From NCBI GenBank assembly GCA_022446905.1, contig JAKVBT010000006.1, positions 138,144 to 202,143 on the forward strand: 64,000 nt of DNA. The letters are read 5' to 3'. The DNA comes from Phycisphaerales bacterium. Lineage in GTDB: Bacteria; Planctomycetota; Phycisphaerae; Phycisphaerales; SM1A02. Each line of letters opens with the position of its first letter. Within the stretch, counting starts at the first letter, position 1. The notes under the pieces are model-generated. The model did no database searches and was not told where the DNA came from. It saw only the letters and a list, made by a program, of their open reading frames with translations. Below, in pieces: positions 17,565-25,017 of the stretch. The translations under genes were made by a program, and so were the position numbers.

Positions 17565-18383
17565 ATGTGTCGTTGGATTGCCTATCTCGGACCTGCGCTT
17601 CGATTGGACTCACTCTTGGTGCAGCCAAGTCACTCGCTGCTCATGCAGTCCAAGCATGCGCTGGAATCGACCTATGCCATCAATGCCGATGGCTTTGGCG
17701 TCGGTTGGTACACCTCAGAAAGCGAACGTCCCGGTCTCTATCACGAGACCAGACCAGCATGGAATGACGAGAACCTCAAGAGTCTGGCGTCGCATCTCAG
17801 TTCACACATGTTCATGGCTCATATCCGGGCTGCGACCAGTGTGGTGTCCCGGTCGAATTGCCATCCGTTTGCGCACGACAAGTGGCTGTTTCAACACAAT
17901 GGTGTGATTGGTGGCTTCGATCGCATTCGCCAGCATCTTGATTGCCAGATTGATGATTCGATCTATGCGCGCAAACGCGGTAACACCGACAGTGAAACCA
18001 TGTTCGGACTGTGTCTGACCGAGGGCCTCAAGGAAGATGTGCCTGGGGCTATCGAGCGCATGATTGGCCGTGTGGAAGCAGCGCGCAGACAATTCAATAT
18101 TGAAGAGGCCTTCCGGATGACGGTAGCCATCGCTGATGGTCACCAACTTTGGGCCGCCAGATACCAATCCGATGGAGACGGTCCAAGTCTGTATCACACC
18201 GCAGATCACAGTGGGGTGGCTGGGGCTGTCGGGGTCGATGCGCAGATCGAATCGGAAGCTACGATCGTTGTTTCTGAGCCTCTTGATGAGGTCTCAAATC
18301 ACTGGGTTGAGGTGCCAACTCGGAGCGTGTTGATCGCATCGGCCTCTGGGGCCACCTTACAACCCTTCAAAACGGCCTTTTAG
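17565..18383 (+). CDS. Class II glutamine amidotransferase (YafJ/EgtC-like)
   Basis: A 272-residue Ntn-hydrolase that starts MCRWIAYLG, so Cys2 becomes the N-terminal nucleophile after Met removal. Family blocks are NADGFGVGWYT, FMAHIRAATS, NCHPFAHDKW, FQHNGVIGG and NTDSETMFG. Relatives include YafJ and EgtC, which cleaves the gamma-glutamyl bond during ergothioneine synthesis. No other ergothioneine gene lies nearby, so the substrate is open. It is a stand-alone glutaminase domain with no synthase domain. The ATG overlaps no neighbour and the gene seems monocistronic. Confidence 0.88.
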   Translation: MCRWIAYLGPALRLDSLLVQPSHSLLMQSKHALESTYAINADGFGVGWYTSESERPGLYHETRPAWNDENLKSLASHLSSHMFMAHIRAATSVVSRSNCHPFAHDKWLFQHNGVIGGFDRIRQHLDCQIDDSIYARKRGNTDSETMFGLCLTEGLKEDVPGAIERMIGRVEAARRQFNIEEAFRMTVAIADGHQLWAARYQSDGDGPSLYHTADHSGVAGAVGVDAQIESEATIVVSEPLDEVSNHWVEVPTRSVLIASASGATLQPFKTAF

Positions 18384-18502: not shown

Positions 18503-21500
18503 TTGATGCGTATTGCCCTGCTTGTGGCTGGAATTGGCCTGTTCGTTGCAGATGCCATTGGCGGTGTCATGACTGTCCGACCATCCCCAGTGCGTTCGCT
18601 CGGGGCCGGTGGTGTCGCTGCAGCCCGCGCCATGCGTGTCGAACCCACACTCATTGACGCGCTCGATGGTCTCACAGAAGTGCTCATTGACGATTTCCGA
18701 CTTCCCGATGGCGAGCCTGTCACCCTGCACTTGACCCCGGTGATCATGGACGTGGGCCCCACTTGGATTGTGGATGACTCTGGCGCCACAGCGCCTCGCC
18801 GACTTCCTCCCGAGCCTGTCAAAGCCTGGACTGGAAGCGTGTTGGGTGAACCAGATTCGCGTGTCTTCCTTGGATTTGCTGGAAGCACAGCCCACGGTTG
18901 GGTTGAGACGACCCGTGGCTTGGACATGCTGGTGACGGACCCCTCCAACACTCAGATTTCTTTCTATCGCGTTGGTCAGGCCCGTGGCGGTGTAGAAGTC
19001 CAGCCACCAGGCACTGCCTTGAAGGATGTCTCGTCAAGCGCGCGCAATGGGTCATGGTCGCCTCCGGCTACCGAAGAGGCGCTGATTCGCAGTGAACTGA
19101 GGCGCTTGCTGCAAGATATGGATGGTGATGGCCCATTAAGCGATCGAATGGATCCCGAAACCTATCTCAACCTGTACCGCTTGCTCGATGCGGATGATGA
19201 TTCTGTGAACATCTTTGCCAGCGGAGGCTGTTGTTTAGCTCCTGGTTATTGCTACACGCTCACTGAAGCACTGTGCGCTGAGTTATGTGCTGGTGCTCCC
19301 GATGATCTTGGGGTGCGTTGTGACAACTTGGCAATTGCATTAGACCCAAGTGACCCATCTAGCGGCACGGACTATGCGCCATGTTGGCTGGGGGCGGGAG
19401 TGCCCTGTAATGCGCAGTGGGTCTGCTTTGAGGCTGGCACAGGTGAGTATGACGGTGCTTGGGTGGGGGCGTGTTGCTATCCAGATCCCGTGAATCCCGG
19501 GGTGCAGGTGCTTGGTGACCTGCAGGCGTGTGAGTGCGCCATTCTTGGCGGCCGTTTCTTGCTGCCACCAAAGCCCTGTGTGAGTGATGGGAAGCCTTGG
19601 GAGATTCCAGCAGATCGGTTCTTGTCGGCAGCGGCATTAGCTGATGTGATTTGTGTGGACAACGACGGCGATCCGCTGCCATTGGATGAATGCCAGATCT
19701 GTTACGAACCTTCCGGTGCTTGTTGCCTCGACCAAGGCTTGTTCTGCCAAGATGTAGTTGATGAGGGCGAGTTCCCGAATCTCTCCTCCGTGCGTTGCGC
19801 ACAACTGCCACGAAGTGTGTGTGAAAGCGATGATGAAAATGTTCTGGCAGTACTCAACGCATCAGTGCCTGGCTACTTCATTCAAGAGTGCATGCCATGC
19901 ATTGATCAGACTGACCTTGCCCTCTACGAGGATGACGACTTGCCACCGCCGACCATCGTGATAGCTGGCACGCCGCCAGTCTGCAGCAGCGTGACGCCAG
20001 TGGTGGAGTATGCCGACCCTGAAAATCCACTGTCGGGTTCAGTGGTCGAATTGCTTGGCCCGAGAAGTCTGATATGTGAAGGCAAAGGGGTGTTGATTGA
20101 CAGTGATCCCTTCTTTGTCCAACTTTTCGGTGGGGACTATGTGGCAGCGTCCGGCTATGCCCGAATTCTTGCGGCAAGTGTTTTCTCGACGATCGAACGT
20201 GATGCAGCCGTCCAGTTTTCAATCGCAGGAGTTGTGCTTCATGATTGGTTGGTAACGGACCCAGATCCGGCAGGCATTGGTGATTTGCCAGACATAGATG
20301 GCAACCAACTATCCATTGGCGCTTGTTGTTTGTCCGGCGCCTACTGCTACGAAAATATCTCTGCCTACCAATGCGCAGAGTACGCGGGTGATTGGCTTGG
20401 AGAAGGCGCATCATGCTGGACCAATGAGTGTGGCGATGGCGTTTCATCCCCGAATGATATTTTGCAACACGCACCCTTGGACATCACCCAAGCCATTGAT
20501 CGATTGCAGGAAGCCTGGACCGTTGACCTTGATGAATGGGCAGGTCCCAATCCTGACAACAACAATGAGGCGCTCGCCGAACTGTTTTGCACCGCCACCG
20601 CAGTTGTGGCACTTGGTGCAGCGCCCTATTACGTTCCCTCGGATTCGAGCGAGGGTCCTGCAGATGGTGTCTATCGACAGGGTGTGGCTACTTCTGGGGT
20701 TGGGGTGCTGTGTCAGCGCGAGGATGCATTTGCGCTTGTGCCGGTGCGTGGGGGCTTTGCGCCGCCACCGTCATCTCATCCGCCACCTGCAGAAGAGGGC
20801 ATGTGGGACTTTGTGCAATTTGCACGTGCCATGGGCTTGCTTGCGGGAGTCAATGCGACTTCGCTCTATGGTTATGACAGTTGTATCACCTTTCCCTGTG
20901 ATTCAATGGCCGCACTTCCAGATTGCACACTTCGTTATGAAGATCCAGCGGCCTCAGCGCTTGGGGTGATGCCATCGACCATCATGTCCAACTGTCTGAC
21001 CTGCGACGGTGGATTGGCAAACATTCAGCTTCGCTATCGAAATGAGATTGCAGCGCGGATCTATTCAAGTGTTGCGGCGCTGGAATGCGGCCCCGAGGCG
21101 GCTGGTGCGTGGCCTCCAATCTGTGTTGCCAACCTCGGCAGTGGCAGCGACTATGTAGCGGATCAGCAATATCCAATTCCAATCAGTGATGTGTTGATTG
21201 TTCCTGATCTTGTCAGTACGACACTCGATGTTCTGGCAAATGACATCCCTTGCAACTGCAATGGGACATCGGACGGGGATGCCATCAAGATCATCCAGGG
21301 TTCGGGGAGTATGATCGATTGCAGTAGTGGTTCGGTTCTAACCACGCTTGGCGGTGCTGTTTGTCTGACAGAACTCCCGTCCGGGGTTGAGGTAGTTGAA
21401 TATACGCCGCCGGTTGACTGGTGTGGCATTGACTCCTTTGTCTATGAAGTTGAGAACTGCAATGCAAGTCAGCCAAATCCTGCAACGACGGTGTATTTGG

Positions 21501-23209
21501 TTCCAGATACGGGCGATCTGCCTTTGTCGCCTTTGGCAGGCTCCTTCTCATGCGTCAGCATTTCGAGCATTGCGGAAAGCTCCTTTGTTCCCGCCAGTAT
21601 TCTCGATGCGCCGCCTCCAATTACGGCTTGTGGCTCTGATCCCACGGTGATCTGCTATCGAGCCAACAATGTTGGCGCTTCGATCAAGCGAATCCGCTGG
21701 GACAATGCCCGGTTGGTTGTGCATGCTGGACATCAATCTGAATCGATTCTGCGGTTCTGGTTTGCCAGTGTGCCTGGTGGTGCCGCAGATGTGTTCTTCG
21801 ATGTCAGTCCCTTTGCCCCGGCCGATCCAAGTGATCCATATCCATATTGCGCGACTGCGACTGGTACTTTGTCGCTGCCGAATATTGAAAGCGTCTTTGT
21901 GCCAGTTGGCGGTTTGATTACGGTCCAATGCTATGAAACGTTTGATGATGGTGCGTTGCCAGACGCAGAATGGAAGTCATTCAATATCGACATCGATTTA
22001 GGATCCAACTCAAGTGTTTTGGGTGTGTGCTGTGTCGAAGGCCTCTGCTTAGATGAGTTGACAGCCAACGAATGTGCTGACTTCCACTGGAGGTGGGATG
22101 AGGAAGCAGGGGTAGCAGGGGAATGGGTCGAAGATCTTACGGTCAGTGGTTTCTTCTATGGTGCGGGGAAAACCTGCGATGACTTGGATTGGTGCACGCG
22201 GCGAGCGCCTTGTTGTCTTGGATCAGTGGCTTGTGTTGAGGTTGCACCTGACGTGTGTACCAATGATCTTGACGGCACCGTGCTGACTCTGCCCGACAAT
22301 GTGTTTAATCCAGACGAGCCATTGTGGGGGTATCCCTGCACATTTACGGTGTGCGACCTAGATCCGACCGTCGATGTGATTGGTGGTTGTTGTTTGAACA
22401 ACAATGCAACAGGCTTGGCATTCTGTACAGATACCACGATGGATATCTGTGATGGCTTGCCAGCACTGCTCCCTGGGGCTGCATGGGAGTCCACTTGGCA
22501 GGTGCGTGCCAAATGCACTGCAACCGCTTGTGGAACGGGCAATGGGCCCACTGGAGGCGTTGGGGCATGCTGTTTCGATGATTTGAATTGTTGCACTGAT
22601 GGTCTCACTGCAGCAGTTTGTGCAGAGGCCTACGGCCTCTTTATGGGAACAGGAAGCACTTGTGCGGATACCTGTCCAACATCCAATCCAGTTGACGGCG
22701 TCTGCTGCTTTGACTCGAGCAGCATTGGTGGCTGGGCCTGTATTGAAGGGCTTCCAGCGTCACAGTGCACGCTGATTGGTGGTAATCACAACACCACATT
22801 GACCAGTTGCTCTGGACTTCTGCCGTGTGATCCCGGCGTACCCATCATCAATTGTTGTGTGGATTATCAACTGCTGGTTGTGGATAGCGCCCAAACCTGC
22901 TGGGAGGCTGGTGGTCTCTTGGCTGGGGTTGATGGTGTTGACCCAGATTGTGACCCGCTCGATGGTGTCATTGCAGTGAACGGCAACACAACGAGCTATA
23001 CAGTTTGGGCCCCGACCTTTGGTGGAACTCCATTAGGATTTTTCAACGCTGCAGACTTTGATCGGGACGGACGCGTTGGGGTTCCTGATTTGCTCATGCT
23101 GCTGGACTTCTGGCTCGGCGATGGTCCAAATAGTCCTGCTGGCGATCTCGATGGAGACGGCATGACGGGTGTGGTTGATCTCCTGCTCCTGTTTGAGAAC
23201 TGGGGTTAA
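18503..23209 (+). CDS. Giant secreted Cys-rich repeat protein with cadherin-like and dockerin-like regions
   Basis: A 1568-residue exported protein. A TTG at 18503 (GGAG 8 bases upstream) and the adjacent ATG at 18506 are both possible starts. A signal peptide (ALLVAGIGLFVADAIGG) comes first. Residues about 30-160 resemble the propeptide-like region ahead of planctomycete metalloproteases (VLGEPDSRVFLGF), but no HExxH motif follows. About ten GxCC-type repeats begin near residues 241, 322, 405, 606, 1174, 1235, 1294, 1354, 1399 and 1450. Residues about 890-990 look like a cadherin/Big-type beta domain (VLANDIP ... WCGIDSFVYEV). Residues 1514-1568 form two Asp-rich, calcium-binding-type dockerin-like halves (ADFDRDGRVGVPDLL and GDLDGDGMTGVVDLL) ending in ENWG. 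A role at the cell surface is inferred and the function is unknown. Confidence 0.85.
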   Translation: MMRIALLVAGIGLFVADAIGGVMTVRPSPVRSLGAGGVAAARAMRVEPTLIDALDGLTEVLIDDFRLPDGEPVTLHLTPVIMDVGPTWIVDDSGATAPRRLPPEPVKAWTGSVLGEPDSRVFLGFAGSTAHGWVETTRGLDMLVTDPSNTQISFYRVGQARGGVEVQPPGTALKDVSSSARNGSWSPPATEEALIRSELRRLLQDMDGDGPLSDRMDPETYLNLYRLLDADDDSVNIFASGGCCLAPGYCYTLTEALCAELCAGAPDDLGVRCDNLAIALDPSDPSSGTDYAPCWLGAGVPCNAQWVCFEAGTGEYDGAWVGACCYPDPVNPGVQVLGDLQACECAILGGRFLLPPKPCVSDGKPWEIPADRFLSAAALADVICVDNDGDPLPLDECQICYEPSGACCLDQGLFCQDVVDEGEFPNLSSVRCAQLPRSVCESDDENVLAVLNASVPGYFIQECMPCIDQTDLALYEDDDLPPPTIVIAGTPPVCSSVTPVVEYADPENPLSGSVVELLGPRSLICEGKGVLIDSDPFFVQLFGGDYVAASGYARILAASVFSTIERDAAVQFSIAGVVLHDWLVTDPDPAGIGDLPDIDGNQLSIGACCLSGAYCYENISAYQCAEYAGDWLGEGASCWTNECGDGVSSPNDILQHAPLDITQAIDRLQEAWTVDLDEWAGPNPDNNNEALAELFCTATAVVALGAAPYYVPSDSSEGPADGVYRQGVATSGVGVLCQREDAFALVPVRGGFAPPPSSHPPPAEEGMWDFVQFARAMGLLAGVNATSLYGYDSCITFPCDSMAALPDCTLRYEDPAASALGVMPSTIMSNCLTCDGGLANIQLRYRNEIAARIYSSVAALECGPEAAGAWPPICVANLGSGSDYVADQQYPIPISDVLIVPDLVSTTLDVLANDIPCNCNGTSDGDAIKIIQGSGSMIDCSSGSVLTTLGGAVCLTELPSGVEVVEYTPPVDWCGIDSFVYEVENCNASQPNPATTVYLVPDTGDLPLSPLAGSFSCVSISSIAESSFVPASILDAPPPITACGSDPTVICYRANNVGASIKRIRWDNARLVVHAGHQSESILRFWFASVPGGAADVFFDVSPFAPADPSDPYPYCATATGTLSLPNIESVFVPVGGLITVQCYETFDDGALPDAEWKSFNIDIDLGSNSSVLGVCCVEGLCLDELTANECADFHWRWDEEAGVAGEWVEDLTVSGFFYGAGKTCDDLDWCTRRAPCCLGSVACVEVAPDVCTNDLDGTVLTLPDNVFNPDEPLWGYPCTFTVCDLDPTVDVIGGCCLNNNATGLAFCTDTTMDICDGLPALLPGAAWESTWQVRAKCTATACGTGNGPTGGVGACCFDDLNCCTDGLTAAVCAEAYGLFMGTGSTCADTCPTSNPVDGVCCFDSSSIGGWACIEGLPASQCTLIGGNHNTTLTSCSGLLPCDPGVPIINCCVDYQLLVVDSAQTCWEAGGLLAGVDGVDPDCDPLDGVIAVNGNTTSYTVWAPTFGGTPLGFFNAADFDRDGRVGVPDLLMLLDFWLGDGPNSPAGDLDGDGMTGVVDLLLLFENWG
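19223..22930 (+). repeat. Dispersed GxCC protein-repeat region
   Basis: At least ten divergent copies of a 30-45 residue unit, G-[A/G/V]-C-C, short spacer, C, 6-8 residues, C, then usually a Gly-rich stretch and a final Cys. The copies are encoded at about 19223, 19466, 19715, 20318, 22022, 22205, 22382, 22562, 22697 and 22850. The DNA copies are diverged, so this is an old protein repeat and not a recent tandem duplication. Copies cluster at both ends of the protein, leaving the 20.5-22.0 kb middle free. Confidence 0.75.
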
Positions 23210-23214
23210 TCGGC

Positions 23215-23559
23215 GTGGGCTCGGCAAGTCGCCGTGGAATCATCTTGACATCGGTTGCTGCAGCGTGTGTTGCAGAAGGCCTGCTCGCCGTAGCGTGGTG
23301 GCGCTTTGCCGAAGATCCATCCGCTCGAGGACTGAGTTTGGCCTTGTGGGTGTGGCCACTGTCGTGGTTGGGATGCCTAGTGCTGGGGTGGATCTGTCTT
23401 TGGCTGGCACGTCGATGGGATGACGGACCCTTCGGTGTTGGCTGGAGCACATCGATGTGTGACTTGTTTGCCCGCGCCTTGCTTCTGGGTGTGCCACTGG
23501 TGGTCTGCGGCTACGCAGCGCTCATGGCGATTGTCGCTTGGTCAACCCTACCGAAGTGA
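23215..23559 (+). CDS. Small hypothetical membrane protein
   Basis: A 114-residue protein from GTG 23215, 5 bp after the giant gene, with about three hydrophobic segments (residues 9-29, 41-66 and 85-108) and a charged loop RRWDDGPFG. Its 3' end overlaps the end of purD, on the opposite strand, by 12 bp. No family was recognised. The close spacing suggests co-transcription with the giant secreted protein, but any functional link is a guess. Confidence 0.5.
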   Translation: MGSASRRGIILTSVAAACVAEGLLAVAWWRFAEDPSARGLSLALWVWPLSWLGCLVLGWICLWLARRWDDGPFGVGWSTSMCDLFARALLLGVPLVVCGYAALMAIVAWSTLPK

Positions 23560-25017
23560 GGCCATGGTCTCGATGCGGTGCCCAATGTCGCGGCGAAAGA
23601 ATCCACCTGGCATCTGAATGGCATCAAGGGCTGCATTGGCACGGTTTCGTGCCTCGACAAGACTGGCGTCCAATGCCGTGACTGAAAGGACCCGACCGCC
23701 GCTCGAGGCCAATTTGCCGGAAGCATCACGGGTAGTTCCTGCATGGAACAGGATCATGTCGTCATTGGATACTTCATCAGCACCCTCAATGGGTCGTCCC
23801 TTCTCATAACTCCCGGGATATCCCTCGCTGCACAGCACGACACAGCAGGCGTGTCTTGGGTCAAAGGAAATGTCCGCATCAATTAACGTGCCAGCGGCAG
23901 TGCGCCAGAGTGTGTCAAGCAAGTCGCCTTGAAAGCGAGCCATCAAGGGTTGGCACTCGGGGTCACCAAATCGGCAGTTGAACTCCAGCACTTTGGGGCC
24001 ACCCGGAGTCAGCATCATCCCGGCATAAATGACGCCGCGGTAATCGATTTTGTTTCGCCGCAGTGCATCAACCAATGGGATCAATACCGTGCGTTCGATC
24101 AGGTCGAGCATGGCTTCATCCACGACGGGAGTGGGGCAGTAGGCGCCCATGCCACCAGTGTTTGGGCCTGTGTCACCTTCGCCGACCTGTTTGTGGTCTT
24201 GGCAGGGATCAAGAATCCAAATCGTCTCGCCGTCATACAGGGCAAGAATGCTGGCCTCCTGACCTTCCAGCATTTCTTCGATGATGATCCGATCTCCAGC
24301 TTCGCCGAAACATCGTTCAACCATGATGGCTTGGATTGCCTCGACCGCTTCCAGCGCGGTACGGCATACGACTACGCCCTTGCCGGCAGCTAGCCCGGCA
24401 GCTTTGACCACCATGGGTTCTTCGCGTGAGGTCAGTAGGTCGCGTATGTGCGTATCCAAGGCGGGCATTGGGCGTTCGCCACGATCATCACTTCCGCGAA
24501 GCCACCAGAGCAGCGGCTCGAAAGTCATATCGCCGGCTTCCACCTTGGCGTCTAGTTCCGGCTCGAAACTTCGCATTGCCCAGCGCAAGGCAGCGTTGGC
24601 TGTTTGCAAAGTCCGGCTTTCAGCAGTGGGTATGGCTGCCTGCCGCATGATTTCTTTGGCAAAGGCCTTGTCTGATTCAAGTTGAGCGCCAGCCTGAGTT
24701 GGGCCAAACACGCGAATGCCATGTTCGATCATGACATCAGCGACACCCTCTGCCAAGGGCTGCTCAGGTCCGATCACTACCAGATCAATCGCATTCTTCG
24801 TGCACCAGGTGGTGAGTGGATAAAAGTTGGTTGGATCCCAGCAGAATTCGCATGGCTTGGCGACGGCATCAATTCCTGGATTGCCTGGATGCGTTGTCCA
24901 CAGTGTGCCGCACCGTGGTGATTGATGTAGGCGCCATGCGAGGGCGTGTTCGCGCCCACCGCCCCCAATTAAAAGGACATTGCATGACTCTGGGCATGGG
25001 TGGTTGGTTCCAGACAT
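23548..25017 (-). CDS. purD: Phosphoribosylamine-glycine ligase with an extra internal segment
   Basis: A 489-residue GARS, an ATP-grasp enzyme that joins glycine to phosphoribosylamine in purine synthesis. [15 protein letters not shown] (14-28), [46 protein letters not shown] and [12 protein letters not shown] are all standard. Typical PurD is about 420-430 residues. The excess is mostly an acidic, Trp-rich insertion at about 151-200, just before the ATP-binding [13 protein letters not shown]. That motif usually reads [11 protein letters not shown], so Asp is replaced by Ala206. Otherwise the enzyme looks intact. It is convergent with the small membrane gene. Confidence 0.94.

Follow-up and report, generated by a model that had tools for sequence, protein, structure and literature searches.

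The question raised by this locus is what a very large, cysteine-rich and apparently exported protein is, and what it might do. In the window (the whole stretch of DNA analysed, 64,000 nucleotides of a Phycisphaerales bacterium), the gene is a single intact open frame at 18503–23209 (+) encoding 1568 aa, as the initial annotation stated. The TTG read there as the start (18503) immediately precedes an ATG at 18506; hence, the latter is the likelier start, and the whole gene is placed at 18506–23209 (+). Its N-terminus, MRIALLVAGIGLFVADAIGG (18506–18565, +), judged by eye from the letters, resembles a signal peptide, and 87 cysteines (5.5%) bear out the remark that the Cys content is very high for an exported protein. 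The whole protein matched nothing in NCBIfam or among PDB sequences, and a whole-protein search of named genomes returned no relatives. In Pfam, only Big_9 and Dockerin_1 were matched, each below threshold, and neither the prodomain nor the catalytic remnant described below was recognized. Since Pfam and NCBIfam gave almost no matches, whether with the whole protein, the N-terminal part or the catalytic remnant, we built our own profiles.

Using a profile of related M12B proteases, we found three matches in the open frame: a prodomain at 18578–18979 (+; iE 1e-11), the N half of a catalytic domain at 19916–20227 (+; iE 9.5e-6) and its C half, with the Met-turn IMSNC, at 20696–21097 (+; iE 7.8e-10). 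The corresponding hhalign E-values were 3.6e-25 (stretching to ~19225), 7.5e-16 and 3.3e-24. Profile-profile comparison of seven orthologs with the M12B profile gave a colinear match from the prodomain to the Met-turn (E 4.5e-50), and the catalytic-domain homology including the Met-turn (IMSNC..C at aa 826) reached E 5e-37 by hhalign. The metalloprotease-propeptide-like N-terminus noticed earlier is thus a true M12B-type prodomain, whereas the accompanying claim that no protease domain is present does not hold: a degenerate M12B catalytic domain is there, split by one of the GxCC units (unit 4).

The zinc site of this domain is lost, with HExxHxxGxxH replaced by RAMGLLAGVNA; sequence comparison places FARAMGLLAGVN at 20819–20854 (+) against FAHELGHNFGTLH in active relatives. 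Over aa ~769–860 the window protein reads MWDFVQFARAMGLLAGVNATSLYGYDSC ... STIMSNCLTCDGGLANIQLRYRNEIAARIY, and its counterpart in L083, an active M12B protease of the same genome, reads NWDLMVFAHELGHNFGTLHTHDG ... GTIMSYCHICEGGLANIQLNFHP. L083 consists of Reprolysin_5 (Pfam E 6e-22), then Big_9, then a dockerin-like tail, and the active relatives combine Reprolysin_5 (E ~1e-20 to 1e-22) with a prodomain, Big_9 and a dockerin tail. The window protein lacks the catalytic Glu and each of the three zinc histidines; the prodomain, the catalytic-domain sequence and the Met-turn are retained. Hence, with the zinc site absent, this is a pseudoprotease homolog and not an active M12B member. The comparisons show a conserved M12B (ADAM/reprolysin-type) protease homolog that is predicted to be catalytically dead. 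Big_9 comes after Reprolysin in the active paralogs, and a Big_9-like domain occupies the same position here (aa 892–985; 21176–21457, +); the cadherin/Big-like domain proposed initially therefore stands as a Big_9 match, but with a score (E 0.0084) under the Pfam cut-off.

The ten diverged GxCC units of the initial annotation are real as ten CC units, at aa 243, 324, 407, 608, 1176, 1237, 1296, 1356, 1401 and 1451 (TTG numbering), but the strict GxCC motif occurs in eight of them, the other two being APCC and INCC. Units 1–3 lie at the junction of prodomain and catalytic domain (19223–19900, +), unit 4 is an insert in the catalytic domain (20318–20431, +; 31.6 bits with the unit profile), and units 5–10 follow at 22022–22951 (+). 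The family profile scores clearly for units 4, 8 and 9; the remaining seven are too diverged, and their cysteines are still nearly invariant in orthologs. Across seven orthologs, the invariant Cys number 22/24, 6/6 and 33/35 in the three blocks.

Orthologs were found in most of the searched genomes of the genus and, outside it, in one more genus of the family (G336). Those of full length have 1511–1876 aa, with frames kept, the tail at the end and CC units at matching places, and share 34–42% identity. HExxH, and with it the zinc ligands and the catalytic Glu, is absent from every ortholog that covers the zinc-site region; conserved instead are a GV..T..YGYD.C-like stretch and IMS.C..C..G...N.Q[LM]R[FY]R.E.AAR.Y. 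Near-invariant unit cysteines and kept motifs at such identity point to selection on the pseudoprotease rather than decay. The gene is preceded by a class II glutamine amidotransferase (window 17565–18383) and followed by purD (window 23548–25017), and the same two genes flank the orthologs in related genomes. As a separate observation, a 7994-aa open frame of a relative (G319:C64, near 21896–22273) matches the PA14-domain part of L083.

We found no Pfam or NCBIfam model that matches the GxCC unit, whose consensus is roughly GACCLPDGxCxxxTxxxCxxxGGxxxGDGTxCxxxxC, with six Cys in ~40 aa. Profile search of the same genome gave 83 units in 39 ORFs, 36 of which carry the tail, and 11 of 294 sampled genomes of the phylum had a match at 1e-5. 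Among named genomes, the DNA pattern for GACCxPDGxC led to 80 loci with 445 units in 85 ORFs, mostly from Phycisphaerae and other Planctomycetota, with some Zixiibacteriota and a Myxococcales bin. By these profile and pattern searches, GxCC is an uncatalogued, abundant Cys-rich domain family that is widespread in Planctomycetota. Contigs of Klebsiella and FCB were rejected as signs of a wide spread, having no unit by profile, as were those of Chitinophagaceae and Bacteroidia, which may be mis-binned planctomycete DNA.

GxCC units accompany M12B (L116, L195), trypsin-like, esterase, beta-helix, FG-GAP and plastocyanin domains, and also form pure arrays. Hence, occurring beside many kinds of domain or alone, the module is general. 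A 692-aa ORF (L133:3529-5604, +; genome G003) is almost wholly made of 15 canonical units and offers a convenient natural array for structural study. A recurrent protein of ~500–550 aa with four units was seen in L154, L161, L162, L165, L174, L179, L200, L208 and L223 and in the same genome as the window (L108:8940-10421); most copies have the dockerin-like tail, and in those scanned the N-terminal part lacks a Pfam match. Also in that genome, an M12B protease (L116:1493-3919, -; contig C45; Reprolysin_5 E 5e-20) has three units right after its catalytic domain, the position at which ADAMs carry their disintegrin/Cys-rich part. We looked for enrichment of GxCC with M12B and did not find it: units occur in two of the five ORFs that match the M12B profile in the same genome, and none of the 85 named GxCC carriers matches that profile, one of them (L195) being Reprolysin_4/5 by Pfam. 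Hence, the link between GxCC and M12B may be coincidence.

Whether the repeats belong to a named, characterized family has a divided answer: no Pfam or NCBIfam family fits, but they match the extracellular domain of human iRhom, which controls ADAM17, a protease in inflammation. We searched the GxCC profiles against 177,635 distinct PDB sequences, the PDB being the eukaryote side covered, and found iRhom1/iRhom2 to be the top family with each of four profiles. E-values were 5e-4 (14 units), 8.3e-6 (73 units), and 3.4e-4 and 1.4e-4 (two sets, mostly of named-genome units); the 73- and 80-unit profiles matched no PDB family besides iRhom at E 1. Each iRhom was matched at two places, one per half of the iRhom homology domain (IRHD), the first match being a half-unit, ACCVRNDRSGC...EEEC, and the second a full unit with six of six Cys in register. 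When the non-Cys columns were permuted, the second-half score fell from 26–32 to ~5 bits and none of 100 permutations reached the original, a control on iRhom segments preselected by the real profile that locates the signal and not its significance. Hence, Cys spacing alone does not explain the iRhom match.

Corresponding results came from modelled folds. Template-free AlphaFold2 models had a pLDDT of 85 for unit 4 of the window protein and 95 for a canonical GxCC unit. In a Foldseek search over 350,542 PDB chains, unit 4 had three matches at E <= 10, led by iRhom1 (TM 0.72, probability 0.80) and then iRhom2 (TM 0.71), with E > 0.1. With the canonical unit, four iRhom entries ranked 1–4 (probabilities 0.98, 0.94, 0.66 and 0.51; TM 0.61; E > 0.1), and the next unrelated match had a probability <= 0.07. 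The weak E-values reflect the tiny size of the domain (42 residues). VIA-align superposed the units on iRhom1 593–640 and iRhom2 565–612, the same residues as those matched by sequence, with Z only ~4; on 9xy4 it aligned a stretch from 497–498 to 593, which starts at the site of copy 1. The VIA-align short list with Z >= 2 was iRhom alone, a list in which the absence of other folds is not evidence. Given Foldseek E > 0.1 and VIA-align Z ~4, fold alone would not prove kinship; the case for iRhom likeness is made by the agreement of independent routes, sequence and modelled fold, on the same residues.

Since bacterial units match in both halves, the IRHD appears to hold two GxCC-type units. The IRHD has been called unique among known domains (PMC8233286), described as a unique fold (PMC10148629) and termed unprecedented (PMC11248996). 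In the structure of ADAM17 with iRhom2, for which the construct is iRhom2 isoform 2, the prodomain of ADAM17 is contacted by the IRHD, and D475 is the key residue (PMC11248996). Copy 1 starts at C470-C471 in the 827-residue chain, so D475 falls in the loop that follows these two cysteines and one of the two apparent units would contain it. Searching the literature for iRhom together with Planctomycetes turned up no report of this connection. As far as the literature shows, the GxCC family and its IRHD match are new; the M12B fold and the dockerin-like tail are of already known kinds. A bacterial family that matches both IRHD halves would suggest where the IRHD may have come from and provide natural variants of it by the hundred, and GxCC would supply small, soluble single units for studying the iRhom-ADAM17 contact. 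On the bacterial side, an uncatalogued Cys-rich domain is defined, together with a class of pseudoproteases that carry the tail and are conserved in Phycisphaerae.

At the other end of the protein, the dockerin-like tail ending in ENWG was confirmed at aa 1517–1568 (23051–23206, +), with two loops of Ca-binding type. Dockerin_1 scored it at 12.8 bits against a gathering score of 22.9 (E 0.14, under the cut-off). A 56-residue tail query found ~120 related places in the 2.58-Mb genome, and an iterated tail profile over the fetched regions found 129 ORFs, 108 of which end within 15 aa of the domain, typically in ...LLAxWGPC(P); the expectation that the tail occurs on many secreted proteins was thus borne out. 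The NCBIfam model NF041540, 'GC-type dockerin domain-anchored protein', matches 43 places in the genome, 17 over its cut-off of 29 bits, and does not match the window protein at E <= 1. By sequence, the window tail is a diverged member of this GC-type population: it resembles the others in its paired Ca-loop-type repeats, its place at the extreme C-terminus and its occurrence on many exported proteins, but lacks the terminal G-C. We found no paper that uses the term 'GC-type dockerin'.

Neither partner suggested earlier for the tail turned up. Cohesin (PF00963) is absent at E <= 10 from the same genome (96% complete), and of 61 genomes of the family, 6 have cohesins above the cut-off; nor was a sortase detected in the same genome. 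With no cohesin or sortase detected, surface anchoring by the tail stands as an inference. The genome has one exosortase (PF09721, E 5e-46; G000:C4:40694-41485, -) with no obvious tie to the dockerin-like tails. The second Ca-loop helix is where the tails stop; with neither a membrane helix nor a basic end, they have no PEP-CTERM-like end, and we therefore rejected the exosortase as their partner.

The most likely reading, and one we consider probable, is that of an M12B pseudoprotease with ten GxCC units and a common tail, working as a surface-held, non-enzymatic scaffold. The protein would be exported and folded with many disulfides, its tail would tether it to the cell surface or to an extracellular complex, and the dead protease domain and the GxCC units would bind partners. 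The likeliest partners would be substrates, or active M12B proteases of the same cell that share both tail and prodomain with the window protein. If the hold of the IRHD on the prodomain of ADAM17 is a guide, GxCC units may bind the prodomains of M12B proteases, either in cis or in trans, and in the window protein they adjoin an M12B prodomain in one chain. An appealing but unproven further step would be that the protein binds or restrains the active M12B proteases of its cell. GxCC units mostly occur without M12B, and a dedicated role in protease control is therefore unproven. That the animal IRHD descends from a bacterial GxCC module already working with M12B proteases and their prodomains, with the window protein a distant iRhom-ADAM17-like regulator, we regard as unlikely.

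The scaffold has to be weighed against a plainer account, a serious possibility though not the one we favor, in which planctomycete exoproteins use GxCC units quite generally as disulfide-stapled spacers or binding knobs. The dead protease domain would then be a leftover, and the protein would be a structural part of the surface, unconnected with the control of proteases. Units beside unrelated domains (beta-helix, FG-GAP, esterase, plastocyanin) and pure arrays such as the 15 units in 692 aa fit that account. The pseudo-active region is nevertheless kept over orthologs at 34–42% identity with invariant motifs of its own, unlike a decaying leftover, and units 1–4 are similarly placed in and around the protease domain in orthologs. 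Nor is the likeness to iRhom easily put down to convergence of Cys-rich mini-folds without homology, which seems improbable: the small size of the unit (six Cys in ~40 aa), the Foldseek values of E > 0.1 and a eukaryote search over the PDB leave room for it. Against it, the profile reaches E 8e-6 and brings up no further Cys-rich protein of the PDB at E <= 1, the signal lies in the non-Cys columns, both IRHD halves are matched, and the same residues are picked by sequence and by structure.

Equally doubtful is membership in the 'planctosome', a cohesin-dockerin protease complex proposed for freshwater Nemodlikiaceae in the Phycisphaerae (PMC6461901), with the window protein as a dockerin-borne component. 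Similar genome size, dockerin-tailed M12B proteases and the cohesins in some same-family genomes speak for it; a 96%-complete genome free of cohesin matches at E <= 10 and a tail under the Dockerin_1 cut-off speak against it. The window protein can be set beside several known systems. Its genome shares dockerin-bearing M12B proteases of Phycisphaerae with the planctosome, but has no detected cohesin, and GxCC units and pseudoproteases go unmentioned in the available parts of that account (PMC6461901). The M12B proteases of Phycisphaerales (Reprolysin_3/4/5, e.g. L083 and L081 of the same genome) resemble it in prodomain, domain order, the IMS-C-C Met-turn region, the Big_9 that comes next and the dockerin-like tail; unlike them, it has a destroyed HExxHxxGxxH, GxCC units between and inside its domains and a C-terminal GxCC block.

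The IRHD of iRhom1/iRhom2 (8snl, 9o58, 9xy4, 9q7y) has the CC-x-C-x-C-x-C-x-C pattern of GxCC with non-Cys residues in register, and IRHD and GxCC models appear to share a beta-beta-alpha-beta unit (0.9–2.4 A over 28–45 residues), present in two copies in the IRHD. In iRhom, a rhomboid-like membrane protein, that domain is flanked by TMD1 and TMD2, and its copy 1 has a long insertion; unlike iRhom, the window protein appears from its sequence to be of soluble type and exported, has ten units and is itself M12B-type, its layout being M12B-type multi-domain with no rhomboid core by Pfam. The IRHD binds an M12B protease, touching its prodomain via D475 in copy 1 (PMC11248996), and the context of a catalytically dead protease is common to the IRHD and the window protein.
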